Below are positions 3,114 through 40,863 of a DNA stretch of 55,731 nucleotides, in pieces. The stretch is from positions 1 through 55,731 of the forward strand of contig JAAWDZ010000064.1 in assembly GCA_022794015.1 (NCBI GenBank), read 5' to 3'. How positions within the stretch are numbered: position 1 is the stretch's first letter; each line of letters starts with the position of its first letter. The stretch comes from Eubacterium sp. (lineage in GTDB: Bacteria; Bacillota; Clostridia; Lachnospirales; Lachnospiraceae). A program made the position numbers and the translations under genes. The notes below the pieces were generated by a model. That model had not been told where the DNA came from, made no database searches, and worked only from the letters and a program-made list of their open reading frames with translations.

Positions 3114-4754
3114 TTATTCTATATTCACTACGGTAAAAATTCCGTTTTCCGCCATTTCATATTCAAATGAAACCATATCGCCGACAGTATATTTTACAAT
3201 TTTCACCAATGTCGTATCCGCTACGTTTACATCAAATATATCCTCTGACTGTTCCAGACAGATATAATAATGGGTATTTCCGTCTACTACAACAGGAGCA
3301 ATTGATGCGATTTTGCCTTTCTTTTTTTCATAAACGCCGGACACTTGGCTCTTTGTAATCCCGTTTGTCGTCAGAAGCTTCATATAAGCCCTCTCACATT
3401 CCTGTACTGTATCCCCAATAGCAACCCACTGGTATTTCTGGACATTTACCATCGCATATTTTTTGACCAGGCCCGCGCCGTCCTTTAAAGCCATAAAATA
3501 GGTCGGCTCATTTGTTATATTAAGTAAAAGCGGAAACGTCGCCCGATATCCCAGGTTCTGTACCTGCCCTTCCGCAGAAGACATGGCGGAATCCTCTATT
3601 GCACCCTCAATCCGGTAAAACTTAGTTTCCATCGTACGCTGGTTCATCAGTACAAAGCCTACGTTGGACTGATCTCCACTCACACTTGTCACACCGGTAT
3701 ACACCCATACGTCATCGTTCAATGCAATATAATTGTATCCATTTGTCGTCTGCAGGCAATCCTTCTGCCCTAATATACTGTTAAAATATCCGTGTTTTAA
3801 AATACCGTAATAGTTGTAAAGTCCGGTCAAAAGCTCTGCGGAATACACCTTATCCACCCAGGTCGGTACATCCTCTACGTCATACTCTTCACATTCCCCT
3901 GTAATAGCATTACAGAGTATGGCCTTGCCCACCGTCTGTCCGCCGAAAAGGCCAATATTGAACTTCTTAACCGGACATACCCAGTACGGCGTTCCTTCAT
4001 CGTTGATTTCAAAAAAAATCTGATCGCCAAAAATATAGGTCGGATAGTGAAAACGCAGATGCCGGTATATATTACGGTTAAAAAGTTCCGACTCCGAATA
4101 ACGAATCCCTGCCTGCAGCTTCACACATTCCGTATTCTGTGTCGCCATATCGATCCGGATATAGGCGGGAATTCCCTGTTTCTGGTTGGTCAGCCATTTA
4201 ATCGGGCTGGCATAAACAAGCGGCGCAACACGCACCGGCGTATTCTGATAATTGATCTGGGTGTATTCGGTGCTGACCTCAAACTGAGATACCATGTCCA
4301 CCATGCTCCCCATCTTGCGGTTTCCCAAAAGCTCAGCAGAGCTTTTATCCAAAAGCGGAATCGTATTGAAGCTGACCTCCTTGATATCTCTGACAAAATC
4401 ACTTTCCTCTACGGTAAGCAGCTTCTGGTATTTCGCCGCATTTACAATCGGGGAAGAAAGAATTGCCCCCACTGCATACACCGCGCCAATCAGAATAAAT
4501 GCCACGACTCCGATTTTCACCAGTTTAAATTCCTGCATAAGACTTTTCAGCTCCGGCCTGCTGTTTTGTTCTTTATAAACCCGTCCCGCTTTTGTCATCA
4601 CATAAACAGCCGTGAGCAATGCCGTCAGAAACAGCAGGCATTGCCAAAATCCGCCGGAGTGTATGTTAATGGCCGGAATGGTAATGTAATAATAAATTCC
4701 AAAAAACAACACCAGTATAATAGCAATCACAATTTTTTTTACCGCTTTTTTCAT
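3114..4754 (-). CDS. Multi-spanning membrane protein of unknown function
   Basis: A 546-residue protein with three hydrophobic segments near the N-terminus: about 6-27, 35-55 and 80-105 (KIGVVAFILIGAVYAVG). About 440 residues follow, rich in beta-forming sequence and aromatic residues, without a motif I recognise. The topology suggests a membrane anchor with a large extracytoplasmic or membrane-associated domain. Its ATG overlaps the stop of the GTPase-nuclease gene upstream as ATGA, so the two proteins are probably made together. I cannot assign a family with confidence; a CvpA-like or lineage-specific label would be a guess. Confidence 0.75.
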   Translation of the reverse strand: MKKAVKKIVIAIILVLFFGIYYYITIPAINIHSGGFWQCLLFLTALLTAVYVMTKAGRVYKEQNSRPELKSLMQEFKLVKIGVVAFILIGAVYAVGAILSSPIVNAAKYQKLLTVEESDFVRDIKEVSFNTIPLLDKSSAELLGNRKMGSMVDMVSQFEVSTEYTQINYQNTPVRVAPLVYASPIKWLTNQKQGIPAYIRIDMATQNTECVKLQAGIRYSESELFNRNIYRHLRFHYPTYIFGDQIFFEINDEGTPYWVCPVKKFNIGLFGGQTVGKAILCNAITGECEEYDVEDVPTWVDKVYSAELLTGLYNYYGILKHGYFNSILGQKDCLQTTNGYNYIALNDDVWVYTGVTSVSGDQSNVGFVLMNQRTMETKFYRIEGAIEDSAMSSAEGQVQNLGYRATFPLLLNITNEPTYFMALKDGAGLVKKYAMVNVQKYQWVAIGDTVQECERAYMKLLTTNGITKSQVSGVYEKKKGKIASIAPVVVDGNTHYYICLEQSEDIFDVNVADTTLVKIVKYTVGDMVSFEYEMAENGIFTVVNIE

Positions 4755-7480
4755 ATTATTTCCTCGCTTTCCTGGCCGATTGTCCTTAAGCTTTCAGCCA
4801 CTTCCTGTTTTATCCCATCCAGCAGATAATTCCGGCTTCCTTTCGGCCTCACCAAATGTTCTTCCCGGATCTGCTGTTTCATGCGCATAATCTCCTGCAG
4901 GAGATCCTTTGCAGATAACAGCAGACAGCCCGCACCGCGGATAATTATCTGCTCCAGCCCATCGGAAGTTGCCACGGTCACATGGTATTTCTTTCTGTTT
5001 TCGTGGGCAAACCTCTCAATATAGGCATCTGCGGTTTCCGCTTCTTTTGTATATACCACATGGATGTTGTGATAGTCGAAAAATTCTGTCCTGTGGCCTG
5101 CTACCCGGTATGCGTCAAATACCACAATCACCTGGCATCCTCTGATTCCCTGATAATTGCACATCATATCTAAGAGTCTCCCTTTCGCCCCATCCATATT
5201 GTTTTCGGACAGCTCTCTTAATTCTGACCACGCATATATGATATTATATCCGTCTACCAGAAGGTATTCTTCTTTTGGCTCTTCTTTTTTCATCCCGCGG
5301 TAAGGTGTCTGTCCAGTATCTGCCTTTACAACACGCCGGCTGGTTTTATAGCCTCTTTTGGGTATCTGTTTTTTGCGCCGGTTGGCATACAGGGTCTTTT
5401 CTATAATTGCGTCTACTTCCTCTGTGGCAAGCCACTTTTCTTCCTGATATACACTCTGCGCCATTACAGTGGGTCTGTTCTCATCGCCTTTGTCTTTTGG
5501 AGACAGGACGCTTTCTATATGCATAAATTCCGGTACTTTGTCCCATTCCACCAAATATCCTGCGCCATGGGCACAGAATACCGAACCGGACGGGTTGGCC
5601 AGATCCGCCTGCGGATCGTATCCAATCGCCTCCGCCACCTCCTCCTGATTGTGACAGATATCATACCCGCCATAGCTTAAAAACAGCCTGCCGTCCCCTC
5701 TGGTATAAGCCGCCACCTCCTTAACATACTCCTGCAAAAGCACCACCGGCGCCATTCCCGTCAGCACGGCAAACCCATCTTTCAGATGCGGTCCGTGTAT
5801 GCTGCCATGCCGCTGCTTGATATCTGTCATAGCGCGTCCAATCCACGCTTGTGGTACTTCCAGACGATATTCATAATATGGTTCCAGCAAAACCGTTTTT
5901 GCCTGCATCAGTCCCTGTCTGACGGCGCGGTACGTGGCCTGCCTGAAATCGCCGCCCTCCGTATGTTTTTGGTGCGCCCTTCCTGCTGCTAACGTAATGC
6001 GGACATCGGTAACAGCAGAACCTGTCAGCACGCCTATATGCTCTTTTTCCTGCAAATGCGTCAGCACCAGACGCTGCCAGTTCCGATCCAGAACATCCTC
6101 GCTGCAGTCTGTCACACACTCCACACCGCTGCCCCGCTCTCCCGGCGCAAGCAAAAGATGCACTTCCGCATAATGGCGCAGCGGCTCAAAATGTCCCACC
6201 CCCTCCACCATATCTGCAATCGTTTCTTTATATACAATATGCCCGGTATCAAATCCGATTTCCACTCCGAACCGATCCGTTACCTGCCTTTTTAAAATCT
6301 CAGTCTGCACCTCTCCCATTACCTGTACCAGAATTTCCTGATGCACCTCGTTCCAAATCACATGCAGCATCGGATCCTCTTCTTCCAGCTCTTTTAGCTT
6401 CGGCAGCATCTGTACCGCGTCGCATCCCTCCGGCAGCAGAATACGGTAAGTCAGTATCGGCTCCAGTATCGGATCCAAAAAAGCCTGCTCCACGCCCAGC
6501 CCCTGCCCCGGATACGTCCTGCTAAGCCCGGTCACGGCACAAATTTCTCCGGCAGACACCTCGTTTACCGCCTCATACTTTTCCCCTGAATAAATCCGGA
6601 TCTGGTTCACCTTTTCCTCCCAGATCTCATCTGCTCCCTGCGTTTGTCCATTGCTCAGAAGATCCCGGACTCTAAGGCCGCCTCCTGTCACCTTCAGGCA
6701 GGTCAGACGGCTTCCTGCATCGTCGCGCATGATCTTAAATACCCTGGCTCCAAATTCTTTGGGATAATCCCGTTCCAGTGTATATGATGTAATCCCCTGC
6801 AAAAGCTCCCCGATTCCTTCCGCCTTCAGCGCTGAACCAAAATAGCAGAGAAACAGCTTGCGTTCCGCGATCATCTCACAAAGCAGGTCATGTGTAATGC
6901 TACCTGTTTCCAAAAAATCATTCAGCGCTTCTTCATCGCACATTGCCGCTTCTTCTAAAAATACATCCCTTTCCGGTTCTGTATCCCTGAAAGCCACACA
7001 ACTATCTGAAAGCTGCTGCTTTATCTCTGCCATCAGCAAATCCTCGTCTGTCCCCTCCTGATCCATCTTGTTGATAAATAAAAAAACCGGAATTCCATAT
7101 TCCTTTAACAGCCTCCACAGCGTCTTCGTATGGCCCTGCACGCCGTCTGCCCCGCTTACGACCAAAACGGCATAATCCAGTACCTGCAAGGTACGCTCCA
7201 TTTCTGTTGAAAAATCCACATGCCCCGGCGTATCCAATAACGTAACGGTAAGCTGCGCCAGCCGCAGAATGGCCTGCTTGGAAAATATGGTAATTCCCCG
7301 TTCCCGCTCCATATCATCTGTATCCAGATAGGCACTCTGCTTGTCCACTCTGCCCATCTCGCGTATCGCGCCGCCGGTGTAAAGCAGAGCTTCCGAAAGT
7401 GTTGTCTTGCCTGCGTCTACATGGGCAACAAGACCGATACATATATGTTTTCCGGGTGGATTTTCAGATGCCTGATTCAT
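4751..7480 (-). CDS. Tet(M)-like translational GTPase fused to a C-terminal NYN (YacP/Rae1-like) nuclease domain
   Basis: A 909-residue two-part protein. Residues about 12-640 form an EF-G/ribosomal-protection GTPase: G1 AHVDAGKTT (19-27), RGIT (61-64), DTPGH (83-87), NKMD (137-140), then domains resembling the Tet(M) core and its C-terminal EF-G-like part. After a basic linker (about 690-735), residues 737-880 form an NYN/DUF901 domain. Its conserved acidic positions are in LLVDGYN (D743), VVFDAY (D789), ETADAYIE (D818) and ATSDGLEQ (D840). In Bacillus, YacP/Rae1 cleaves mRNA in the ribosomal A site; Tet(M)-type GTPases bind the same region. I infer a ribosome-directed factor that may cut mRNA, not necessarily tetracycline resistance. 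No frameshift separates the parts. The downstream membrane protein is coupled by ATGA. Confidence 0.88.
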   Translation of the reverse strand: MNQASENPPGKHICIGLVAHVDAGKTTLSEALLYTGGAIREMGRVDKQSAYLDTDDMERERGITIFSKQAILRLAQLTVTLLDTPGHVDFSTEMERTLQVLDYAVLVVSGADGVQGHTKTLWRLLKEYGIPVFLFINKMDQEGTDEDLLMAEIKQQLSDSCVAFRDTEPERDVFLEEAAMCDEEALNDFLETGSITHDLLCEMIAERKLFLCYFGSALKAEGIGELLQGITSYTLERDYPKEFGARVFKIMRDDAGSRLTCLKVTGGGLRVRDLLSNGQTQGADEIWEEKVNQIRIYSGEKYEAVNEVSAGEICAVTGLSRTYPGQGLGVEQAFLDPILEPILTYRILLPEGCDAVQMLPKLKELEEEDPMLHVIWNEVHQEILVQVMGEVQTEILKRQVTDRFGVEIGFDTGHIVYKETIADMVEGVGHFEPLRHYAEVHLLLAPGERGSGVECVTDCSEDVLDRNWQRLVLTHLQEKEHIGVLTGSAVTDVRITLAAGRAHQKHTEGGDFRQATYRAVRQGLMQAKTVLLEPYYEYRLEVPQAWIGRAMTDIKQRHGSIHGPHLKDGFAVLTGMAPVVLLQEYVKEVAAYTRGDGRLFLSYGGYDICHNQEEVAEAIGYDPQADLANPSGSVFCAHGAGYLVEWDKVPEFMHIESVLSPKDKGDENRPTVMAQSVYQEEKWLATEEVDAIIEKTLYANRRKKQIPKRGYKTSRRVVKADTGQTPYRGMKKEEPKEEYLLVDGYNIIYAWSELRELSENNMDGAKGRLLDMMCNYQGIRGCQVIVVFDAYRVAGHRTEFFDYHNIHVVYTKEAETADAYIERFAHENRKKYHVTVATSDGLEQIIIRGAGCLLLSAKDLLQEIMRMKQQIREEHLVRPKGSRNYLLDGIKQEVAESLRTIGQESEEII

Positions 7481-7618: not shown

Positions 7619-10600
7619 TTACTTTTTAATTTTAATATTTTTTCCGATTTTAGCTTTTCGCAGCATTTTTTTATAGACAGTAAATTTCTTTTTTGGAACG
7701 GTTATTTTTGCATTTTTCTGTATTTTCGTAAATGCGCCATTTCCAACTTTTTTGAGTTTTACAGATTTTATCTGCACCTTTTTTAAATTGCTGCAGCCAT
7801 AAAATGCCTGCTTTCCAATCTTAATTATATTTTTTCCTATAATTACCTGTGTAAGCTTTTTATGATTACGAAAAGCTTTACTGCCAATTGACGTTACCTG
7901 ATAGGTATATCCGTTTATTTTTATGGTATCCGGAATCTTAATTTTTTTATCAGATTTTTTTACAGGTTTTACTGCCTCTGCTGTTTGGCTGCCCTTTTTG
8001 GAGGAAAGTATTTTATACCATATTTTTCCTGATTTTTTCAGGCTTCCGGCTTTTGGAGGATTTTTCGTCTGCAGCTTTTCTTCCCCGGTAAGCTGCGCAT
8101 CCGTTTTAATTGCATCTATTGTTCTTTTCGCAGATGCCAGGGCCGCTTCTACTCCTGACACGTCACTGGCCGCTTTTATTGCTTCTATACCCGCTGCAAC
8201 AGCAGATGACAGTTCCCCCTTCTGAGCCGGACGGTATAAGTCCTCTGATTTGTATTTCAAAAGCTCCTGTATGGCATCCTCCCGTGCTTTTGCAAGTAAG
8301 GAAGAATCATTTGATTTATATTCTGCTTCGATTTTAACATCTTCATCTGGCATTACAAAAACTGCCGTATCCGCACTCTGATCCAAAAAGATTATATTTC
8401 CGGAAACAGCTTTCCAGCCCGCAAAATCCCTGCCAGCTATACCTGCTGTATAAACACGGATTATTTCACCGGGGAAACATTCCGCTGATTTTACAATACC
8501 TTCTGCTTCATTATAAATAAAATATCCATTCGTAACCGTCAAATTCCGTTTTTGCTTAGTTGGTGACGCCGTATCTATATCCGGCTCTATAAAATTCCAT
8601 TTATCCGCTTCGTCTGTCAGGCTGTAGGAACCGTCCTGACTGTTTAAATCTTCTTCAGAAGTATAAACTTTGCCTTCTGTAAGAGGTACGCGATTGTATT
8701 GGACCTTCTGCGCCGGATTCCCTTCGGAATCGTATTTTTGAATTGTAATATCCATGCTGCCGGTATCCGTACCTGTATAGCGTATATTATAATAATCCTC
8801 GTTTCCATAAAACCATATCTCAGCCCCATCGCCGGCTGCCGCTGCCACAAGCCCGCTTTTCCCATCCCAGTATGCTTTATGATCTGTGACAGAAGCCGCA
8901 AGTTCCCCCGACGCATAATATACCTCTACATCTACCGGACACTGTACCTGATAAACCGCCGTTGCTTTTTCTTTTTCCTCTATAATCTTTTTATAGTTCT
9001 TATATTCTTTCGGATAATCAACCTCAAGCTGGTAAATCCAGCCTGTCGCAATCTGTTCTCTTTTGGTTGCAACACTGTATCCAATACTTTTAATTGATTT
9101 TTTCAGTTCTTCAGCGTCGTTTGCCCCCACGAATCCTAAAAGCTTTGAAAACCATGCCGAATTAACCGCATCGCAAAAGCTTTCCGCATATTTACAATCC
9201 ACAGTCAATGTATAAAAAAACATTTCTGTCGCCGCCAGATAAACCGCCGCATCTTTGATATCCCCTGAATTTTTATACCTTGTCTTTTTAGAATAATATA
9301 TATTCTTTAATATCTGATTAATTTCCGTGACAGCATTCAGCCTTACAAATGCTTCCGCTGTTTTATCCGCTCCAGTAAGCTGATCCATCACGAATTTGTC
9401 TGCTTTATAAAGGGCAAGATATCCGTTCACAACAGGACCTGCCCCGGCCCTTACTTCTTTCCATAGCATATCAATACTACTCTTTACCATGTATTTGCCT
9501 GAAACATATCCCGTACGCGCCACTACTGCCGCCACACCATCTATCATACTTGAAAGCTCTCTCAATGCAGCTCTTAAACTGGTATTGGAACCAGACGCTT
9601 TGTACATTTCTTCTAACACTTCCTGCATTTCATCCGTCATTTCAGCAATCTGGTTTGCTATTGTAACATATTCCATATACTCTGCCGCCAGTTTAAACAG
9701 CTCCGCCCCTGTAGCAGCCTTATCCGCCCATTTCAAAATTTCGTCCGCATTATCTACTTTTACATTTTTAAAACATTTCCATTTTTTCAGATGCTTAAAC
9801 GCCTCGTTTATCACACCGGCCAAATCTGTTTCCTTATAGCCTTCTTTGTCCACAAAATGGAAAAAATGATTATCTATACGTAACATATCCTCCGGAACAT
9901 CCGTAACCATCTTTAAAGCAGCATCCACCTTCTGAGAGATTTCGCCCGCAGTTGAAACAAACCGGTTTTCCATAGCTTCCTGTAAAATATCAATGAGAAT
10001 TGCCTCATACATCTCTTTTTCACGAAACGGAAGATCGAGTATGGCGGAAGCATCATTCAAAGCGTCGCCTGCAGCAGTCAGCGTCCTCCAGCAGTCAACT
10101 TTATTTCCAAGCCCGTGCTCCTGACTGTTTTTCACAAGAATCTCACCTGGACTTTCCATCGTAATAAATGCTTCCATTGACTCTAACTGATTCTTATTAT
10201 TCAGCAGATAATCTGCCTGGTAGCGCTTTATCTCAAATACCGGGCGCAGCGACACATTTTTCTTTTGTACCTTCTGCCCGGCCTTACTTGAAACAACAGC
10301 GTTTATCTTGGTATTTTCCTTTCCCGTCAAAGATGCCTTCCAGACCGCGCTTTTCCCATCATCTGCAATTACAAATCCAGAGGATTCACTGTCGCATTTA
10401 TCTGCATCATCTTCCGACAAATCCAAAAAAAGCCCCGATATAAAATGTTCCAGATACTCCTTATCCTCCATTGGAAGCTCTGATGTTTTACAGCAAACCG
10501 TCGTAACCTCCCCTGTATCCGTCACAGAAAGCGTTAACTTTGGCTCTACCGAAAATGTTACCTCCGTATTTCCTTTAAACCTTCCTGTTCCAGCAATCGA

Positions 10601-11389
10601 AACCGTTGCTGTCCCGACATTGAGGTTATTCAGATATTCATAGGTATAATCATAACCGTCTTCCAATATAATACCGTTGTATTTTACAGTGAGCGTTGGG
10701 CGTTTTGCTGTACCATCGTAGGTCACATAATAGTCCGACAGGGTACATTCTGCCTCTGCAATATCAATCTGTTCGCCCCATTCGCAGACAAAGCCATAGG
10801 TAGTGTCTGTGTAATTTCTGGCAATCGGATCCCAATAATATCCTGCAGGACGCCAGTTTGGACTGTTATAATAAACCTGATAATATCCAAAAATTCGATA
10901 GGCGCTATCCATTTTTTCACACCAGTTAAAATTATGGCTTCTTTGCCATAAATTTATGACATCCTTTTCTCCTGTATCCCAAAGAGCTCCTGTATTTACA
11001 TAGGTTCCATCTTTATAACCGGAAGGATTATCCTCATCAAAATTACCTGTCCTTCCTCCAATCACATGCTTTAAATCCCGGTTGTTTACACTGATATTAT
11101 TAATCAATCCCCCAATCAGAGCCCTCTCACCCTCAGATGTAATAGTAGCCAGATATCCGCCCAGGCTTTTACAGTAATTATCTGCCTCTGCAGCTGTCAT
11201 CTTCGTTGAATACACTTTATAATAGTGACCGCTCCACAATGTAGCATCCGCTGGAATGGATTCTGCTGCTGATTTCCGCACCAAATCCTGTTCCTTCGCC
11301 GACACCTGCATCCATGATATCGGTAATGAAGCTGCCATCATCACAAATGCCATCCATAAACAAACTGCTTTTTTTCTTATTGATTTCAT
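7619..11389 (-). CDS. Large secreted protein with C-type lectin-like, Ig-like and BspA-type leucine-rich repeat domains
   Basis: About 1256 residues. I chose the ATG at 11389, with GGAAAGGGG just upstream and a signal peptide (KSIRKKAVCLWMAFVMMAAS, cleavage near VSA-KE). Residues about 52-206 look like a C-type lectin fold (YYKVYSTKMTAAEADNYCKS at the start, YGFVCEWG at the end). An Ig/MBG-like beta domain follows (about 210-290), then a long mostly helical region of about 500 residues, a bacterial repeat-like segment ending MPDEDVKIEAEY, and a C-terminal BspA/TpLRR block (IGSKAF, IGKQAFYGCSNLKKV). No LPXTG or S-layer anchor is visible, so it may be secreted or held non-covalently. I infer adhesion or glycan binding. 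The very lysine-rich, AT-rich 3' end may follow recent domain shuffling. Confidence 0.85.
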   Translation of the reverse strand: MKSIRKKAVCLWMAFVMMAASLPISWMQVSAKEQDLVRKSAAESIPADATLWSGHYYKVYSTKMTAAEADNYCKSLGGYLATITSEGERALIGGLINNISVNNRDLKHVIGGRTGNFDEDNPSGYKDGTYVNTGALWDTGEKDVINLWQRSHNFNWCEKMDSAYRIFGYYQVYYNSPNWRPAGYYWDPIARNYTDTTYGFVCEWGEQIDIAEAECTLSDYYVTYDGTAKRPTLTVKYNGIILEDGYDYTYEYLNNLNVGTATVSIAGTGRFKGNTEVTFSVEPKLTLSVTDTGEVTTVCCKTSELPMEDKEYLEHFISGLFLDLSEDDADKCDSESSGFVIADDGKSAVWKASLTGKENTKINAVVSSKAGQKVQKKNVSLRPVFEIKRYQADYLLNNKNQLESMEAFITMESPGEILVKNSQEHGLGNKVDCWRTLTAAGDALNDASAILDLPFREKEMYEAILIDILQEAMENRFVSTAGEISQKVDAALKMVTDVPEDMLRIDNHFFHFVDKEGYKETDLAGVINEAFKHLKKWKCFKNVKVDNADEILKWADKAATGAELFKLAAEYMEYVTIANQIAEMTDEMQEVLEEMYKASGSNTSLRAALRELSSMIDGVAAVVARTGYVSGKYMVKSSIDMLWKEVRAGAGPVVNGYLALYKADKFVMDQLTGADKTAEAFVRLNAVTEINQILKNIYYSKKTRYKNSGDIKDAAVYLAATEMFFYTLTVDCKYAESFCDAVNSAWFSKLLGFVGANDAEELKKSIKSIGYSVATKREQIATGWIYQLEVDYPKEYKNYKKIIEEKEKATAVYQVQCPVDVEVYYASGELAASVTDHKAYWDGKSGLVAAAAGDGAEIWFYGNEDYYNIRYTGTDTGSMDITIQKYDSEGNPAQKVQYNRVPLTEGKVYTSEEDLNSQDGSYSLTDEADKWNFIEPDIDTASPTKQKRNLTVTNGYFIYNEAEGIVKSAECFPGEIIRVYTAGIAGRDFAGWKAVSGNIIFLDQSADTAVFVMPDEDVKIEAEYKSNDSSLLAKAREDAIQELLKYKSEDLYRPAQKGELSSAVAAGIEAIKAASDVSGVEAALASAKRTIDAIKTDAQLTGEEKLQTKNPPKAGSLKKSGKIWYKILSSKKGSQTAEAVKPVKKSDKKIKIPDTIKINGYTYQVTSIGSKAFRNHKKLTQVIIGKNIIKIGKQAFYGCSNLKKVQIKSVKLKKVGNGAFTKIQKNAKITVPKKKFTVYKKMLRKAKIGKNIKIKK

Positions 11390-11450
11390 AACATTCCCCT
11401 TTCCTTTCAATTGAAAATATACGATTTTATTCTAATACTTTCCATCTTAA

Positions 11451-12967: not shown

Positions 12968-14458
12968 TCAGATAATGATGCACACCAGTCCGCCGTTGCT
13001 GTCGTTGACAATCTTTTGCATTGTATCCTGCAATTTCATCTGGCATTCGTCGTCCATCATGGAAATCTTGCTGCGGATACCATCCTCCATCAGCTCGCCC
13101 ACCGATTTTCCGAAAATATTCGTGTCCCAAACGCCGCTTGGCGTATTCTGCCCTTCTTTGATATAAGCAATCAAATCCTTGGCCTGCTCTTCACTGCCGA
13201 CAATCGGCGCAATCTCCGTTTCGATATTTGCCCGGATTAAATGTACCGACGGAGAGGTGGCCCTAAGCTTCACCCCAAATTTATTGCCATGGCGGATAAG
13301 CTCCGGCTCTTCCAGTGAAATATCGCTAAGCTGCGGATGAATTACGCCGTATCCCTTCATCTGAACTGCATTTACCGCATCCGCGACCTTTTCAAACGAG
13401 TTTTTCTGAGCCGACAATTCTTTAATCAGAGAAATCAGCTGGTATTCTCCCTGAATCGGCACGCCGGTCAGTTCACTGATATTCTCATAATAATATTTGT
13501 CTTCTATTTCAATTTTAATCTTTAAAAGTCCCTGCGCCAGATCAATTTTATCCAGATGGATATCCGCTATGTAATCGGAATCTTCCTGCTTTTTAATTTC
13601 CCGGATATCCTTCGCCTTGGTCACCGAATTTAAAATTTCCCGCGCATTTTCAATAATATTTTCTTTCATCCGGTTTGTACACGGCAGCATCTCCGCCCAT
13701 TTTGGAATATAAAATTCCATTCTTACAATCGGAAATTCATACAGAATACTTTCCAAAATTTTGTTAATATCATCCTTCCGCAGCTGTTCACAGCTGACCG
13801 GAATCACCGGCATCTGATATTTTTCCGTCATCTGCTCTGCCAGCTTTACCGTTTCATCACTATACGGCCGCTCAGAATTCAGCACAATGACAAAAGGCTT
13901 GCCCAATGTTTTTAACTCACTGATGGTCTTTTCTTCTCCTGCAACATAATTTTCCCGTTTCAATTCCCCGAACGAGCCGTCCGTTGTCACTACAATGCCG
14001 ATAGTAGAATGATCTTTGATCACCTTCTGCGTCCCAATCGAAGCCGCGTCCACAAACGGAATCTCATAATCAAACCAGGGCGTCTTGACCATACGCTTAT
14101 TGCTGCCCTCCATATGGCCTGCAGCGCCGTCTACCATATATCCCACACAGTCAATCAGACGCACCTTTACCTCGGTATCTCCGTCCAGATGGATGGTTGC
14201 GGCATCCTTTGGAATAAATTTCGGCTCAGTCGTCATAATGGTTTTGCCCTGCGCCGACTGCGGCAGCTCATCAACCGTCCTCGCCCTGCTGTTTTCATCC
14301 TCCATATTGGGAATCACCATCAAATCCATAAAACGCTTGATAAAAGTAGATTTACCTGTACGCACCGGGCCTACAATCCCGATATAAATTTCGCCGCCGG
14401 TTCTTTGCTGTATGTCTTTATAAAGATTAAATTCTTTACTGCCGGATGATACTTCCAT
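12968..14458 (-). CDS. spoIVA: Stage IV sporulation protein A, spore-coat morphogenetic ATPase
   Basis: SpoIVA polymerises on the forespore surface with ATP hydrolysis and forms the coat basement layer. The 496-residue product has the Walker A motif GPVRTGKST (about 30-38), a switch-like LIDCVGYMVDGA, NSERPYSDE in the nucleotide-binding part, and the conserved C-terminal end GGLVCIII that anchors it through SpoVM. I placed the start at the ATG at 14458 (AAGGAG 8-9 bases upstream). The 28 codons upstream lie in the leader. A near-consensus sigma-E promoter at 14596-14624 fits mother-cell expression, and the sigE gene lies elsewhere in this window. Confidence 0.97.
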   Translation of the reverse strand: MEVSSGSKEFNLYKDIQQRTGGEIYIGIVGPVRTGKSTFIKRFMDLMVIPNMEDENSRARTVDELPQSAQGKTIMTTEPKFIPKDAATIHLDGDTEVKVRLIDCVGYMVDGAAGHMEGSNKRMVKTPWFDYEIPFVDAASIGTQKVIKDHSTIGIVVTTDGSFGELKRENYVAGEEKTISELKTLGKPFVIVLNSERPYSDETVKLAEQMTEKYQMPVIPVSCEQLRKDDINKILESILYEFPIVRMEFYIPKWAEMLPCTNRMKENIIENAREILNSVTKAKDIREIKKQEDSDYIADIHLDKIDLAQGLLKIKIEIEDKYYYENISELTGVPIQGEYQLISLIKELSAQKNSFEKVADAVNAVQMKGYGVIHPQLSDISLEEPELIRHGNKFGVKLRATSPSVHLIRANIETEIAPIVGSEEQAKDLIAYIKEGQNTPSGVWDTNIFGKSVGELMEDGIRSKISMMDDECQMKLQDTMQKIVNDSNGGLVCIII

Positions 14459-14477
14459 AAAAATAACTCCTTTCCTG

Positions 14478-14570
14478 CCCAGTATTTCATCCAGCTGGAA
14501 ATTGTAGTTTAAAACCGCATGATACGAATCATGCAGTCCCAAACTATAATTCCCGTCCGGATGGAGTACC
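14478..14570. repeat. Inverted pair of a short dispersed repeat forming a leader hairpin in front of spoIVA
   Basis: AAACTACAATTTCCAG reads leftward from 14510, and a diverged copy (AAACTATAATTCCCG) reads rightward from 14541. Between them is a perfect GCATGAT-ACGA-ATCATGC hairpin. A third related copy reads leftward from 38908 in front of mraY. The whole unit lies in the presumed 5' untranslated region of spoIVA. Confidence 0.55.
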
Positions 14571-34579: not shown

Positions 34580-35338
34580 TTATTTATCTTCCTGGAAAAT
34601 AATATCTTTGGTATTTTCTGACCAGTTTTCCACATGCAGCGTACCGGTTTTTCCGGATAACTGCGGCAGGATATATGGCAGACGCAGAATTTTCTGTGTG
34701 AGATTCTGCGAATCTCCGAGCACAACCTGTATACCGCCATATCTTAAACTGATATCTTTATGCTCATCAAAATATATTTTTTCCGGAACCACCTCGTTTT
34801 TCTTTAATGCCTGTGTCGCAGCCAGAAGACTTTTCAGCACCTTTTCATCCTCAATTGGGAGTTTTTCATATAAAACTACCTTATCGCACTCTATTCCTTC
34901 GACCTGAGGAATATTTTCTATCTTCTCCGTGGATGTCTCTACGACAAATCCATCTGAATCAAAATACGCATTTTGCCCGATTGCGGAAATAAAGATGTAT
35001 CCAAGCACTCCCTTCTCATATACGTGAACCTTTAATGTACGAGGATTCTGCAAAGAAACTTCTATACTGTCCACAAACGGAACCTCCTCCACGTCCAAAA
35101 AACGATATTTCAAAAGAACATACAGAGAATTCCAGGAATTTTCATCCTCTCCGATAATCTGCTCTATTTGTTTATCAGAGTAGTGTTCATTGCCTTCTAC
35201 AATGATATCCTTTACAACAAACACTTTCCAGACAATCAGCGCAGACAGACCAATCAGCAGCAATACACCAAAAAACACCTTCCTTCTCTTCTTCCTGCGT
35301 CTTTTTTTACGGGCTATTTCTTCTCTGTTCCGGCTCAT
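34580..35338 (-). CDS. ftsQ: Cell division protein FtsQ/DivIB
   Basis: Bitopic division protein of 252 residues. It has a very basic cytoplasmic tail (RKKRRRKKRRK), one membrane helix (VFFGVLLLIGLSALIVWKVF), a POTRA domain (VKDIIVEGNEHYSDKQIEQI), and a beta domain ending in an acidic tail. It links with FtsL and FtsB-like proteins and the septal transpeptidase. Its ATG overlaps the ftsW stop as ATGA. In most relatives murG lies between ftsW and this gene; here the overlap leaves no space. Confidence 0.92.
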   Translation of the reverse strand: MSRNREEIARKKRRRKKRRKVFFGVLLLIGLSALIVWKVFVVKDIIVEGNEHYSDKQIEQIIGEDENSWNSLYVLLKYRFLDVEEVPFVDSIEVSLQNPRTLKVHVYEKGVLGYIFISAIGQNAYFDSDGFVVETSTEKIENIPQVEGIECDKVVLYEKLPIEDEKVLKSLLAATQALKKNEVVPEKIYFDEHKDISLRYGGIQVVLGDSQNLTQKILRLPYILPQLSGKTGTLHVENWSENTKDIIFQEDK

Positions 35339-36459
35339 ATTACCCTCTCCATTCTGATACTGCGCGATACGCTAAGCGCCAGTCCCATCTCCGTCAAAAG
35401 AATTGCCACCGAAGTACCTCCGTAGCTGATAAACGGAAGCGTAACCCCCGTATTGGGGATCGAATTCGTTACAACCGCAATATTTAATATAACCTGAATC
35501 GCAATATGCGCCATAATCCCGACCACAATCAATGCACCGGACAAATCCTTTGCATTGTTAGCGATCACCATAAATCTCCAAATCATCAGCATAAACAGCA
35601 AAATCACGCAAACTGCACCAAACAGTCCCAGTTCTTCGCAAATAATAGAAAAAATCATATCATTCTGTGCTTCCGGCAAAAAGCCAAGCTTTTGCATGCT
35701 TTCTCCAAGCCCTTTCCCGAACAGCCCTCCAGAGCCAATCGCATAAAGCCCCTGCAGGGTCTGGTAACCCTTCTCATACTGTTCCGGATGAAACCATATC
35801 TGAAGCCGCTGCCTCCGGTATGGTACTGCCATTATGTATAAAAACCCGGTAGCAGCTATCAGTACACCAGGCACAATAAACTGCAGGTATTTGGGGCTTG
35901 CCACAAATACCAGACAGACAAAAATCCCAAGAATAATTATTGCGGTACTTAAGTTGCTGAAAGCAACCAGGCCTATTAACGGCGCCGCAATAAACAGCAG
36001 TTTCGCAAGAGTCCGAAAATTCCCCATTTTTTTGGATGCAATACTGATTGTCGCTGAAAAAAACAGAATAACTGCCAATTTTGCTAATTCTGACGGCTGA
36101 AAGGACAACGGCCCCAGTTTCAGCCATCTGGCAGAACCGTTTAATTCGGCTCCGACAAAAATTACTGCCAGACAAAGCGTCAGTGAGATCAAATACAAAA
36201 GCCAGCTCAGCTTTAGCCAGATATGGTAGTCTGTTCCCGCCATGACAAACATACCCGCAAAACCCAAAAGTGATGCAAAAAACTGTTTTTTTACATAATA
36301 AGCAGGATCCCCTATTTTCAGCTGTGCATTGTAGTAGCTTGTGCTGTATAACATCACCAGCCCAAATCCCACCAAAAATATAATTACAAACAGTAACGTA
36401 TAGTCAAAATATCTTTTTTCTTTCTTCCCGCTTCCTGATCCCCTGGATTTTCGGGTCAT
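35335..36459 (-). CDS. ftsW: SEDS peptidoglycan polymerase FtsW/SpoVE
   Basis: Polytopic glycosyltransferase of 374 residues that polymerises lipid II together with a class B transpeptidase. About ten helices are seen, with the family sequences LNGSARWLKLGPLSFQPSEL, LQGLYAIGSGGLFGKGLGES and NTGVTLPFISYGGTSVAILL. AAAGGAG precedes the ATG by 8 bases and overlaps the murD stop zone. Whether it serves vegetative division (FtsW) or the spore cortex (SpoVE) cannot be told from sequence; only one copy is in this window. Confidence 0.94.
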   Translation of the reverse strand: MTRKSRGSGSGKKEKRYFDYTLLFVIIFLVGFGLVMLYSTSYYNAQLKIGDPAYYVKKQFFASLLGFAGMFVMAGTDYHIWLKLSWLLYLISLTLCLAVIFVGAELNGSARWLKLGPLSFQPSELAKLAVILFFSATISIASKKMGNFRTLAKLLFIAAPLIGLVAFSNLSTAIIILGIFVCLVFVASPKYLQFIVPGVLIAATGFLYIMAVPYRRQRLQIWFHPEQYEKGYQTLQGLYAIGSGGLFGKGLGESMQKLGFLPEAQNDMIFSIICEELGLFGAVCVILLFMLMIWRFMVIANNAKDLSGALIVVGIMAHIAIQVILNIAVVTNSIPNTGVTLPFISYGGTSVAILLTEMGLALSVSRSIRMERVI

Positions 36460-36463
36460 AGAG

Positions 36464-37825
36464 TCACTCCTTTAACTGATTTACAATTTCTTTAAACTTT
36501 CTGCCCCGCTCTTCATAATCAACAAACATCCCCCAGCTTGCACATGCAGGCGAGAGCAGCACCGCATCGCCGGATACTGCCTGCCTGTAACAGATATCAA
36601 CTGCTTCTTCCAGAGAATCTGCCAGAGTAACCGCGGTAAAACCGCAGGCAATAGCCGCTTCTCTGATTTTTTCCCTGGTCTGGCCAATCAGCACAAGCTC
36701 TTTGACCTTTCCTCCAAATGCCTGAATCCATGTATCATAAGATGCATTTTTATCGTAACCGCCTCCGATCAGATAAGTAGGCCGAGTCATGGCACAGATA
36801 CCTTTCACTGCTGCGTCCGGATTGGTTCCTTTGGAATCATTATAGAACCTGACGCCTCTTTTTTCGGTCACATATTCAATCCTGTGCTCTACTGCCTGAA
36901 AATGCAGCAGAACCTCCCTTATCTTCGCAAGTGGTACGCCAAAGCCATCTGCCATAGCGGCGGCAGCCATGACATTTTCATAATTATGCAACCCTAACAG
37001 ATTTAATTCCTCTGTTTTCACCAGCTCCTTTTGTTCATTGTTTCGGGAAACAAAGATTACACCGTCCTTAAAAAAGAAACCGTCCTTTAACTCTCTCATG
37101 CCAGAAAACCAGGTCACCTTTGTCTTAAGCCCTTCCCCGAAACGCCGAAGCGCTTCATCCTCATAATTCAGCACACACAAATCATCCTCCCTCTGATTTT
37201 TGGTGATGCTCTCTTTTACGGCAATATAGTTTTCCATTGTATGATGCCGATCCAGATGATCCGGCGTAATATTTAATATCGCCGTAACTTCGGGTGCAAA
37301 CGTATGGGCCGTTTCCAGCTGAAAGCTGCTGATTTCCGCTACGGTCACTGTTCCGTCGGTTGTCTGATCGGCTATACTGGTATAAGGGATACCAATATTT
37401 CCTACTACCTTTACATCTGAATAATAATGCTCCAGGATCTCTCCCAAAAGTGCCGTAGTGGTCGTCTTTCCATTGGTCCCGGTTATGGCAAGCAGCTTGC
37501 CTTTGGAAAACACATAGGCAAGCTCTATTTCACCCCAGATTTCAATCCCTGCATCCCTCATTTTTTGGACCACAGGAAGATCTGGCGGCACTCCTGGGCT
37601 TAACACCAGAATATCAGTGCCATCTATTACATTCTCCGGCAATGTACCGCAGATCAGAGTCACTTCTTTTAAAGCCGGATTTTTGCCATAAAATACTTCT
37701 TTATCCAGTCCGTCGTTGCCGTCATACAGCGTTACCGCAATATGCTGACCCACCAGAAGCCCCGCCGCAGCGATTCCGCTTTTTCCCGTTCCCATCACAA
37801 GAAATCTTTTGTCTCTCATATCCAT
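36464..37825 (-). CDS. murD: UDP-N-acetylmuramoyl-L-alanine--D-glutamate ligase
   Basis: Cytoplasmic ATP-dependent ligase that adds D-glutamate to UDP-MurNAc-L-Ala. It has 453 residues, the usual length: the N-terminal Rossmann domain (LVMGTGKSGIAAAGLLVGQH), P-loop AITGTNGKTTTTALLGEIL, central NITPDHLDRH and C-terminal YNDSKGTNPDA. AGGAGG stands 8 bases before the first ATG; a second ATG two codons later is less favoured. Tight spacing to mraY (15 bases) and ftsW (4 bases) shows it is in the dcw operon. Confidence 0.96.
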   Translation of the reverse strand: MDMRDKRFLVMGTGKSGIAAAGLLVGQHIAVTLYDGNDGLDKEVFYGKNPALKEVTLICGTLPENVIDGTDILVLSPGVPPDLPVVQKMRDAGIEIWGEIELAYVFSKGKLLAITGTNGKTTTTALLGEILEHYYSDVKVVGNIGIPYTSIADQTTDGTVTVAEISSFQLETAHTFAPEVTAILNITPDHLDRHHTMENYIAVKESITKNQREDDLCVLNYEDEALRRFGEGLKTKVTWFSGMRELKDGFFFKDGVIFVSRNNEQKELVKTEELNLLGLHNYENVMAAAAMADGFGVPLAKIREVLLHFQAVEHRIEYVTEKRGVRFYNDSKGTNPDAAVKGICAMTRPTYLIGGGYDKNASYDTWIQAFGGKVKELVLIGQTREKIREAAIACGFTAVTLADSLEEAVDICYRQAVSGDAVLLSPACASWGMFVDYEERGRKFKEIVNQLKE

Positions 37826-37840
37826 TTTTTCATCCTCCTG

Positions 37841-38794
37841 TTACATTGCCATCAAAGCTAACAGACAAAGCAATGCTGTTACAATGGAAAATACCGCTAC
37901 TGTTCTGGTTTCAGACCAACCGCCCAGCTCAAAATGGTGGTGGATCGGCGCCATACGGAAAAACCGCTTTCCATGAGTCGCTTTAAAATACGTAATCTGT
38001 ATTATGACAGAAATGACTTCAACCATATAAATAAATCCCACAATCGGAATAAATAACGGCATCTGCAGCATATAAGCGGCAGCAGCCACAAATCCGCCAA
38101 GCGCCAGAGAACCGGTGTCTCCCATAAATACCTTGGCCGGATAGACATTAAACAGCAGAAATCCCAGCAATGCGCCTACTACAGCACAGGTAATCGGCTC
38201 TATCCCGCTTTCCGTTCCAACTGCAACTACGCTGAAAAATGTGGCAACAAGCACCGTTACACTTGACGCCAAACCATCCAGTCCGTCCGTAAAATTCACA
38301 CCGTTTACCGTGCCGATAACAGCCACAAATAAAAAAGGAACCGCCATTACACCCAAATCCAGATATTTCCCTCCTGAGAATGGTATCAGCATTGTGAGTG
38401 AAATATTTGTAAAGTTTTGCAGATAAAATGTAAAAATTCCTGTTACGATAATCTGCAGCAGCATTTTCTGCCATGCAAGCAGCCCGTCGGAGCGCCTTAA
38501 CACCACCTTTAAATAATCATCCAGAAACCCGATTGCACCAAATCCCACCGTCAAAAACAAAATAGGAATAATCTTCGGATATTCATCCAGAAACAAAAGG
38601 CTTGTAACAAGTACGCCGGCCAGTATCATAAGTCCGCCCATTGTAGGCGTCCCAGCCTTTTTCAAATGGGATTTCAGCTCTTCGCGTTCTGTCTGCCCTA
38701 CTTTTAATCTTCGTAAAAACGGGATAACAACCGGCCCTAATACTGCGCTGATTGCAAACGCAATTAAGACCGGCGCTGCTACATGATAAATCAT
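37841..38794 (-). CDS. mraY: Phospho-N-acetylmuramoyl-pentapeptide transferase
   Basis: Membrane enzyme that makes lipid I from UDP-MurNAc-pentapeptide and undecaprenyl phosphate. Ten helices; signatures KKAGTPTMGG, FLDDYLKV, NGVNFTDGLDGLASSV (catalytic Asp), FNVYPAKVFMGDTGSLALGG, and the HHH-type loop MAPIHHHFELGG. I chose the ATG at 38794, with GAGGTAAGGTT directly upstream; the open frame runs ten codons further. 317 residues. It follows spoVD after 225 bases, where murE and murF would often be. Confidence 0.96.
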   Translation of the reverse strand: MIYHVAAPVLIAFAISAVLGPVVIPFLRRLKVGQTEREELKSHLKKAGTPTMGGLMILAGVLVTSLLFLDEYPKIIPILFLTVGFGAIGFLDDYLKVVLRRSDGLLAWQKMLLQIIVTGIFTFYLQNFTNISLTMLIPFSGGKYLDLGVMAVPFLFVAVIGTVNGVNFTDGLDGLASSVTVLVATFFSVVAVGTESGIEPITCAVVGALLGFLLFNVYPAKVFMGDTGSLALGGFVAAAAYMLQMPLFIPIVGFIYMVEVISVIIQITYFKATHGKRFFRMAPIHHHFELGGWSETRTVAVFSIVTALLCLLALMAM

Positions 38795-39019
38795 AACCTT
38801 ACCTCTTTCATTTTCGCGGCGCATGCCGCCTGTTGTACTTTATCGTTACTGTTCCTTCCAATCTATGTCTTCTTACCCCGTACTCCATCCGACTGGAAAT
38901 TGTAGTTTCTAACTGCCTGTTTCGCATCATTGCGTCGATAAAAAGTCCGGACGACGCCACCGCATCGCCGTCGAAATTTTGCCTGGCACTGGCACGAGCC
39001 ATACAGCATAAAACCACAT
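38795..39019. other. Gene-free gap between spoVD and mraY with dispersed short repeats
   Basis: No supported gene. A 69-codon minus-strand frame exists (38808-39017) without ribosome site or known match. It contains the short repeat AAACTACAATTTCCAG (leftward from 38908, also present in front of spoIVA) and a 13-base ATGCGAAACAGGC (38915-38927, minus) also found at 115-127. This is foreign to the tightly packed operon and looks like an inserted repeat. Confidence 0.45.
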
Positions 39020-40798
39020 CTAATCTGCATGCTGTGTATCTGCTTCGGCAGCCGCCTCCTTATCAAAAGGAATATCCAGATATGGAAGAATATCTTCAAA
39101 AATTTCTTTTGCCACTGGCGCTGCAATTGTCCCTCCATAATAAACTCCCTGCGGATTATTGATAATCACAAGCACCATTACCTTCGGATCGTCAATGGGC
39201 GCAAAGCCCAGAAAAGACGAGATATATTTATTTGCGCTTCTTGGCAGAGTCTGCGAAGTCGCCGTTTTGCCGCCAATATCATAGCCGGCTATTTTTGCAT
39301 TTTTTCCGCCGCCTACTGATACAACCTGCCCTAACAGATAGCGGACTTTATCAGATGTTTCTTTACTTACGATTCCTTCCTGTGTTTCATAGGAAAATTT
39401 CTTCACTACATTTCCGTCATTATCCTGCACGGCCACTCCAAAATGCGGGGTAATCCGCCTTCCCCCGTTGATAATTGACGAAACAGTCGTTACGAGCTGA
39501 ATGGGGGTAATCTGAAACGACTGGCCAAAAGACATGGTAGCCAGCTCTACCAGACCAATATTCTCTTTGGAATGCATGATCGTAGCTGCTTCTCCGGGCA
39601 AATCGATCCCGGTTTTTTTTAACAGCCCCAGACTGCCGAAATAATCGTAAAAACGCTCCGGCCCAACACGCAGACCCACATCTATAAATACCGGATTGCA
39701 GGAATTCATAATCCCATGGACAAAATCCTCCGACCCGTGCCCGGTACGCTTGTGGCAGTGTATCCTTCGATCTTCCACCGTAATATAGCCAGGACAGAAA
39801 AACTGATCTGACAGACTCACTACCCCTTCTTCCAGAGCCGCTGTTGTCGTAATAATCTTAAATGTAGAACCGGGCTCATATGTGTCGTTGATACACTGGT
39901 TTCTCCACATATTATTCAACAGATTCTGTTTTTCTTCATCGGTTAGAGCCCCCTGCGGTTCATAATTTAACGTAAAAGGGTCGTTTAAATCAAATTCCGG
40001 TACATTTACCATGGCCATCAGTTCCCCATTGGACGGATTCATTACAATAATGGATACGCTGTCCGCCTGCTTTTGTTCCAATGCCTTGCCTGCTGCCTGT
40101 TCCGCATACATCTGGATATTATAATCCAGGCTGATATGCAGGTTATTACCGTCAGTCGGCTCCATTCTTGATTCTCCGGCATTTGCAATTTCCACACCCC
40201 TGGCATCCGTCAGTGTCAGGATTTTGCCGTTTGTACCCTGCATATATTCGTCATATCTGACCTCCAGGCCGACAATTCCCTGATTATCGCCTCCGGTAAA
40301 ACCCAAAACCTTAGAACCCAGCGTATCATATGGATAATACCGTTTATAATCCTCATCGACTTTAACACCCGAAAGCCCGTATGCACGGATACGCTCTCCG
40401 GTATCTTTATCCACATTGGATTTGATACGCTCAATAGAACTCACCTTTTCCACCCGTGCACGTACCTTTTCCTCAGAAATTTCAAGTTCCTTCGTCAAAG
40501 CCGCAATGACAGCTTCCGGATCGTCTATCTGATTGTGAATGACAGATATCGTACAGACCGTTTTATTTGCGGCCAGCACAACGCCTGTCGCATCTATAAT
40601 TTTTCCTCTCGCTGCCTTGATATCACGCTCCCTCTCATGCAAATTCTCTGCCTTCTGCCCATAATATTCAGAGCAGAATACCATCAGATAAACCAGACGC
40701 CCCATTAGAAACATCATCATGAACAAAATACATGTAAATACAATCATCGCCTTCCGACGGTTATACGTTTTATAGCGAAACATAAAGCAAAGCCTCAT
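39020..40798 (-). CDS. spoVD: SpoVD/FtsI-like class B penicillin-binding protein
   Basis: Bitopic transpeptidase of 592 residues that crosslinks peptidoglycan. Helix at about 18-40, a dimerisation domain (KAARGKIIDATGVVLAANKT), then the transpeptidase fold: SxxK at 311-314 (EPGSTFKI), SxN at 366-368 (MNSCNP), and the third motif reads KTA at 511-513 (GGKTATSQ) instead of KTG. No PASTA domains follow, so it is shorter at the end than Bacillus SpoVD. Neighbour of another class B PBP; one probably serves division and the other the spore cortex. Which is which is inferred only from position. The start codon lies in a 12-bp inverted repeat. Confidence 0.85.
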   Translation of the reverse strand: MRLCFMFRYKTYNRRKAMIVFTCILFMMMFLMGRLVYLMVFCSEYYGQKAENLHERERDIKAARGKIIDATGVVLAANKTVCTISVIHNQIDDPEAVIAALTKELEISEEKVRARVEKVSSIERIKSNVDKDTGERIRAYGLSGVKVDEDYKRYYPYDTLGSKVLGFTGGDNQGIVGLEVRYDEYMQGTNGKILTLTDARGVEIANAGESRMEPTDGNNLHISLDYNIQMYAEQAAGKALEQKQADSVSIIVMNPSNGELMAMVNVPEFDLNDPFTLNYEPQGALTDEEKQNLLNNMWRNQCINDTYEPGSTFKIITTTAALEEGVVSLSDQFFCPGYITVEDRRIHCHKRTGHGSEDFVHGIMNSCNPVFIDVGLRVGPERFYDYFGSLGLLKKTGIDLPGEAATIMHSKENIGLVELATMSFGQSFQITPIQLVTTVSSIINGGRRITPHFGVAVQDNDGNVVKKFSYETQEGIVSKETSDKVRYLLGQVVSVGGGKNAKIAGYDIGGKTATSQTLPRSANKYISSFLGFAPIDDPKVMVLVIINNPQGVYYGGTIAAPVAKEIFEDILPYLDIPFDKEAAAEADTQHAD

Positions 40799-40838
40799 AA
40801 AAGCACCTTTCTTTCATTCTATTACGGCTTTTATGAGG
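40793..40838 (-). promoter_or_regulatory. Inverted repeat enclosing the spoVD ribosome site and start codon
   Basis: CCTCATAAAAGC (minus strand, 40838-40827) and GCTTTTATGAGG (40804-40793) are perfect 12-bp arms. The 22-base loop holds the AAAGGT ribosome site, and the ATG lies in the second arm. Folding of the mRNA would cover the start codon. Confidence 0.6.
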
Positions 40839-40863
40839 TTATGATTTCTTCTGTACTTAAAAA

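Follow-up and report, generated by a model that had tools for sequence, protein, structure and literature searches.

Why should a Tet/EF-G-like translational GTPase be continuous, in a single reading frame, with a nuclease of the Rae1/YacP type? The question is raised by one gene in a 55,731-nucleotide stretch of Eubacterium sp. DNA (contig JAAWDZ010000064.1), the whole of which is called the window below. The fusion is already in print: Atkinson 2015 (PMC4342817; this and the other papers cited by PMC number are drawn on in part) described in one sentence Tet proteins of ten clostridial species that acquired a YacP-like NYN domain, and suggested a resistance role for them. A targeted literature search for the fusion, which covered the Rae1 literature in part, gave no other paper on it among the matches listed. 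What is new here is the genome context, which we set out together with the layout of the protein and a reading of what it may do.

Layout of the fused gene

The gene occupies positions 4751-7480 on the reverse strand and, by ORF, Pfam and alignment evidence, encodes a translational GTPase, a linker and a Rae1/YacP NYN nuclease in 909 aa. The first-pass annotation had joined the two enzymes in one frame, and that frame is indeed single and unbroken. Pfam matches to GTP_EFTU (aa 11-233), EF-G_D2, EFG_III, EFG_IV (aa 414-528) and EFG_C (aa 530-612) cover an EF-G-type GTPase part in full, from aa 11 to aa 612. Within the G domain region (aa 11-244, 6749-7450, placed by Pfam and alignment), the motifs that had been described as intact are so: the seven aligned GTP-binding residues D22, K25, T26, D83, N137, K138 and D140 are kept in 34 of 34 fused rows and in 22 of 22 unfused rows, a group that leaves out L130, L132 and the L. 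salivarius plasmid protein discussed below. In a wider set of fused loci, N137 is replaced by T in 3 of 73 rows. With its GTP-binding motifs and EF-G-type domains II-V, the protein belongs to the translational GTPase superfamily. The GTPase closes with a C-terminal extension, delimited by alignment at aa 607-658 (5507-5662).

The nuclease domain and its tail follow at aa 739-909 (4754-5266; Pfam and alignment), with NYN_YacP matched at aa 740-901 (E 3.1e-51; 174.1 bits against a gathering score of 24.6). The four acidic residues previously claimed as conserved, D743, D789, D818 and D840, proved invariant in all 21 fused proteins compared, the window's own included, and the same positions are invariant in 20 of 20 stand-alone relatives. 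D789, D818 and D840 also recur in each of 72 further fused proteins, for which D743 is present by construction. The nuclease matches a solved YacP chain (PDB 5mq8/5mq9), which we take to be B. subtilis Rae1, at 2.6e-26, and the four acidic residues align with its D7, D53, D81 and D104, as numbered from printed chain positions.

Between the two lies a variable and mostly disordered linker, placed by model and alignment at aa 659-738 (5267-5506) and predicted to be flexible. An AlphaFold2 model built on 58 sequences, including the window's own, has two confident bodies at about aa 10-660 and 738-878, with linker segments 663-685 and 697-732 at a pLDDT below 50; mean pLDDT is 83.8 and pTM 0.63, and the placement of the NYN domain relative to the GTPase is not fixed. 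Counted from aa 655, the linker runs to 62-151 aa (median 81) in 106 fused proteins. Inside this otherwise disordered region, a helix at aa 686-700 (5381-5425) is conserved and specific to the fusion, lying between the point where unfused GTPases end and the point where stand-alone Rae1 begins. Its residues E688, I692 and T696 are found in 102, 105 and 98 of the 106 proteins, respectively, and all three are present in 21 of 21 proteins found through NYN. This helix may act as a control of the nuclease. Of 23 rows of unfused GTPase members, 21 stop at aa 652-660 when numbered as in the window's protein, so the fusion added little beyond linker and nuclease.

Identity of the GTPase and its relatives

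The first-pass annotation had named the GTPase Tet(M)/EF-G-like, and in the strict sense the Tet(M) label failed. The best full-length NCBIfam match is tet_protect, at 411.6 bits against a cut-off of 775; all six further proteins scored (four in the subfamily, two outside it) likewise fall short, at 373.7-702.6 bits, and the NCBIfam EF-G score is 281.1 against a cut-off of 659.4. Among solved structures, Tet(M) comes closest in sequence (1.2e-70), ahead of Tet(O) and EF-G; by fold, the best Foldseek match is EF-G (E 2e-52, TM 0.55 by target), and a Tet(M) chain is absent among the 50 Foldseek matches listed. A GTPase tree of 63 rows was made with IQ-TREE, with a rough bootstrap and, as in the other trees, with the partial rows L111, L133, L136 and L143 left out. 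In it the subfamily splits from Tet(M/O/S), from EF-G and from a Tet-like paralogue at 100/99, and does not group with Tet(M/O/S). On the evidence of sequence, the GTPase is Tet/EF-G-like yet outside the Tet(M) group, in a subfamily of its own. Separately, we observed a 656-aa Tet-like protein (L130:8153-10123) in genome G174, which scores 702.6 bits with tet_protect, below the cut-off, and the same genome also carries an unfused member of the GTPase subfamily.

Domain IV (aa 414-528, 5897-6241; Pfam and alignment) carries the tip motif H503-x-K505-H506-T-E-G-G-D-F-R513. The tip loop reads HxKHTEGGDFR in the subfamily versus YYSPVSTPADFR in Tet(M/O/S), and at the position aligned to Tet(M) proline 509 all 34 fused rows have lysine or arginine. 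H503 and H506 are kept in all 34 fused and all 22 unfused rows, and K505 in 33 and 22 of them, respectively; outside that unfused group, the L. salivarius protein has S and V at the H503 and K505 positions and L132 carries E in place of K505. In the alignment, the EF-G counterpart of H503 is also a histidine at the tip of domain IV, presumably H573 in Thermus numbering; since the alignment of the EF-G row is faulty in the G domain, its tip alone was used. Domain IV is the best conserved folded part, at 0.82 versus 0.64-0.70 for the others among 106 fused proteins, with the qualification that in the set of 80 loci found by domain IV patterns its conservation, and that of the tip, partly reflects how the loci were selected. 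The ranking is the same among the 21 proteins found through NYN (0.83 versus 0.65-0.73). With conservation at this level, what domain IV contacts matters.

These comparisons bear on the proposal of Atkinson 2015 (PMC4342817) that the protein is an antibiotic-resistance factor, that is, a Tet-type ribosomal protection protein in which the RNase domain provides a new tolerance route. The best full-length family match and the nearest structure by sequence both point towards Tet proteins, whereas the score lies far under the cut-off, as do those of the six further proteins, and the branch is separate from Tet(M/O/S). The domain IV tip loop of Tet(M) is held to displace tetracycline (PMC8161019, PMC4750697), and the triple mutant S508A P509A V510A was reported to be active (PMC4750697), so a different tip by itself is compatible with resistance. 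Elements with tet(W) and tet(O/32/O) have been introduced into Butyrivibrio and Roseburia, tet(W) serving as a selectable marker (PMC10696588), which suggests that the hosts are otherwise sensitive and would speak against the proposal if those strains carry the fusion.

In the GTPase tree, the fused proteins form one group: all 34 fused rows, together with one unfused L. salivarius plasmid protein, fall on one side at 100/99. A fused-only grouping without the L. salivarius protein is not rejected (p 0.30). That protein either lost its nuclease or branched off just before the fusion, and its grouping with the fused proteins makes loss likely, though not proven given the p-value. It is encoded at L149:7527-9917 on plasmid pR1, next to rpsN and a gene putatively for metal homeostasis, and its annotation is that of a TetM-type resistance protein; a tetracycline-resistance label is thus attached to at least one unfused member of the subfamily, and it may mislead. 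Two independent fusions were considered and set aside; the NYN tree needs two changes, yet a single split is not rejected (p-AU 0.486). In a quick tree, the fused genes of families f2, f8, f17, f21, f22 and f24 are interspersed with f1 genes, a mixture from which we conclude that the fusion has probably been transferred between lineages.

Distribution of the fusion and the emptied rae1 slot

We surveyed 294 genomes of the window's order with a GTPase profile made from domain IV, domain V and the extension of the fused protein, at a threshold of 1e-40. The profile matches 169 genomes and NYN is found in 268. Sorted by frame lengths and the places of NYN matches, the 169 comprise 138 genomes with the fusion, 30 with an unfused GTPase and a separate NYN gene, and one (G104) counted neither way, as its GTPase match runs into a contig end. 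In all 138 fused genomes, the NYN match falls within the GTPase frame or beside it (63 and 75 rows, in two rounds), and four of the 138 fused genes (in G122, G136, G242 and G302) are interrupted by a contig end or a frame break. The domain pair, sought in other genomes on the strength of the first-pass annotation, is therefore no assembly accident. We would like to note that in G122 (L136) the fused gene, on a contig of 3.9 kb, consists of two overlapping frames, through a natural or an assembly break, and that G288 has two GTPase matches.

The 125 genomes negative for the GTPase divide into 100 with NYN only and 25 with neither. NYN thus occurs in 168 of 169 GTPase-positive versus 100 of 125 GTPase-negative genomes (Fisher p 1.9e-9, kinship ignored), and for unfused GTPases alone in 30 of 30 versus 100 of 125 (p = 0.004, kinship again ignored). 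Nevertheless, with 100 of the 294 genomes having NYN and no GTPase at 1e-40, Rae1 does not need the GTPase. In the window's family, f1, which from its named loci is probably Lachnospiraceae, 104 of the 121 genomes sampled have the linked form in place of free Rae1. A phylum-wide draw yielded the GTPase in 21 of 299 genomes, and the 17 of these that lie outside the order have one NYN match each, 14 in a fused frame and 3 separate from an unfused GTPase. A second collection, ranked by likeness to the fused form and with genomes that may overlap with the first, gave 72 fused loci out of 80; the eight uncounted loci are four with an ORF lacking NYN and four lacking a closed ORF by the pattern used. 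Among 1333 plasmid records with any match, two cover at least 80% of the query, and one of these, a fused protein, is encoded on a Monoglobus replicon of 518 kb.

Stand-alone rae1 usually sits in a cluster cysS-mrnC-rlmB-rae1-sigH: around 20 stand-alone loci, the rlmB family is near in 14 and the sigH family near in 14. The gene names are our reading of the sequences, as are the rRNA roles that go with them. The window's Rae1 domain, in contrast to this setting, does not lie next to rlmB. In its own genome (86% complete), NYN_YacP occurs once, in the fused frame, on a different contig from rlmB, and the rlmB-sigH gap is 9 bp; the slot is closed. Across 21 fused genomes, sigH directly follows rlmB in 13, with a gap of 9-222 bp that is too short for rae1, seven have neither sigH nor rae1 in the 1.5-kb rlmB flank, and one (G072) has a rae1 pseudogene with stop codons after rlmB. 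The fused genome G045 keeps a relic between rlmB and sigH that matches 26 profile positions, and G136 and G154 have an open rae1 copy still in the slot alongside the fusion. These four account, with G165, for the five genomes with two NYN matches; G165 is not fused, and there one NYN gene was matched in two pieces. A second open rae1 is thus found in G136 and G154 only, of the 138 fused genomes, and in the window's own genome there is none, in agreement with the earlier expectation that stand-alone yacP would be absent. Taken together, the closed slots, the pseudogene, the relic and the kept copies look like a replacement of stand-alone rae1 by the fusion, caught at several stages.

The replacement also weighs on the resistance proposal. 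A gene found in 138 of 294 genomes of an order, with only 2 of 1333 plasmid matches covering most of the query, that stands in for rae1 is not what a resistance factor would lead one to expect, and we regard that explanation as improbable. The welded form in place of free Rae1 in so many relatives argues instead for a standing device and not a drug-resistance gene.

Alternatively, the two halves could act separately: the GTPase would serve in rescue, in recycling or as an aid to translocation, and the fusion would do no more than secure its co-expression with Rae1. The unfused GTPase with a separate NYN gene persists in 30 of 30 genomes, each with its own rae1, the linker is long and variable, and GTPase and NYN each keep their own conserved sites, all of which suits this explanation. 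The fused genomes, however, are largely without a separate rae1, and the fusion-only linker helix is conserved, and for these reasons we find separate action rather unlikely. A further alternative takes up the usual position of stand-alone rae1 beside rlmB and mrnC: the nuclease might mature rRNA or tRNA, the earliest role put forward for NYN/YacP (given in PMC4342817), with the GTPase guiding it to ribosomes or assembly intermediates. We give this very little credence, as ribosome-dependent mRNA cleavage has been described for Rae1 (PMC6613710, PMC10100781, PMC12320835) and domain IV would be suited to the A site of whole ribosomes.

The genes around the fusion offered no partner. The fused gene overlaps by ATGA with a 546-aa ORF at 3114-4754 on the same reverse strand, for which no Pfam or NCBIfam match was found at the limits used. 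The first-pass annotation had proposed coupling of the fusion to this membrane protein; the overlap is real, and a functional pairing fell away because the gene is not conserved beside the fusion. No neighbour family holds a fixed place around 21 fused loci: the commonest occurs at 8 of the 21 in varying positions and the next at 3, with the window's neighbours in neither, and around 22 unfused loci no neighbour family occurs at more than 4. Upstream of the fused gene and on the same strand, positions 7619-11410 encode a protein of 1263 aa that contains BspA-type leucine-rich repeats and weakly matches a C-type lectin. Genes like spoIVA, FtsW-type and PBP genes lie at 12968-14542 and 35335-43053, and to judge by such genes the window is ordinary chromosome of what is probably a spore former. 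A defence reading was rejected as well, as ten scanned ORFs (spoIVA, FtsW-type, PBP, Clp and others) look like ordinary chromosome. A search for an RNA leader gave no Rfam match in the window, and promoter and terminator scans of the window were near chance.

Proposed mechanism and comparison with known systems

To our knowledge, how Rae1 chooses the ribosomes on which it acts is an open question. The explanation towards which we lean, with some reserve, is that the GTPase is a tether: a standing factor by which Rae1 would be delivered to the A site when a ribosome is vacant or stalled. Tet-type GTPases bind over or overlap the A site (PMC8161019), and A-site action of Rae1 has been reported or proposed (PMC6613710, PMC10100781, PMC12320835); because Rae1 would act where such GTPases bind, the self-delivered, GTP-driven A-site cleavage suggested in the first-pass annotation is the best mechanism we can offer. 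The GTPase would dock in the factor site of a ribosome with an empty or stalled A site, the tip of domain IV would enter the decoding centre, and the NYN domain would hang from the C-terminal end of the GTPase by its long flexible linker. The C-terminal extension of Tet(M) matters to its function (PMC4750697). At 62-151 aa, the linker should be long enough to reach the mRNA. GTP hydrolysis and withdrawal of domain IV would probably come next, and the tethered nuclease would then cut the mRNA within the A site or adjacent to it. We place the cut after the withdrawal because domain IV and NYN cannot both fill the A site; as the two would compete for it, the timing is conjectural. Degradation of the cut message would follow, and rescue systems would free the ribosome.

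A more elaborate form of tethering would make the protein a GTP-gated cutter, in which the H503/K505/H506 tip tests whether the A site is vacant, hydrolysis serves as a timer, the tethered nuclease then takes the A site, and the helix at aa 686-700 holds or releases the NYN domain. This elaboration is tentative, and we would sooner expect it to fail than to hold in full. If true, it would represent translation-factor-driven no-go decay, a standing quality control on which a large part of the window's family (probably Lachnospiraceae) relies in place of free Rae1. With Rae1 physically linked to an A-site-type GTPase, recruitment and timing of mRNA cleavage on stalled ribosomes by a translational GTPase become directly testable.

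Several known systems resemble parts of this protein. Similar to Tet(M) and Tet(O), the fused protein has the G-II-III-IV-V layout, at about 30% identity, and it differs from them in a longer C-terminal extension and in the nuclease. With EF-G it shares the fold and the tip histidine that aligns with H503, and a separate frame that we took as EF-G is present in the window's own genome. The NYN_YacP domain and its four acidic residues are common to Rae1 and the fused protein; Rae1, however, normally stands alone with about 170 aa, whereas in the fused protein it forms the C-terminal domain of a translational GTPase encoded at a different locus. The RelE fold is not known to be related to that of the fused protein. 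RelE-type cleavage of mRNA in the A site would be similar in its working, provided that the proposed mechanism holds, with the GTPase partner as a property of the fused protein; RelE and Rae1 are named together in PMC12320835. The Tet-NYN family of Atkinson 2015 (PMC4342817) is, by its description, the same as the window's fusion. There it is treated as Tet with a possible resistance role, and the portion of that account drawn on here contains neither the unfused partner nor the replacement of rae1.
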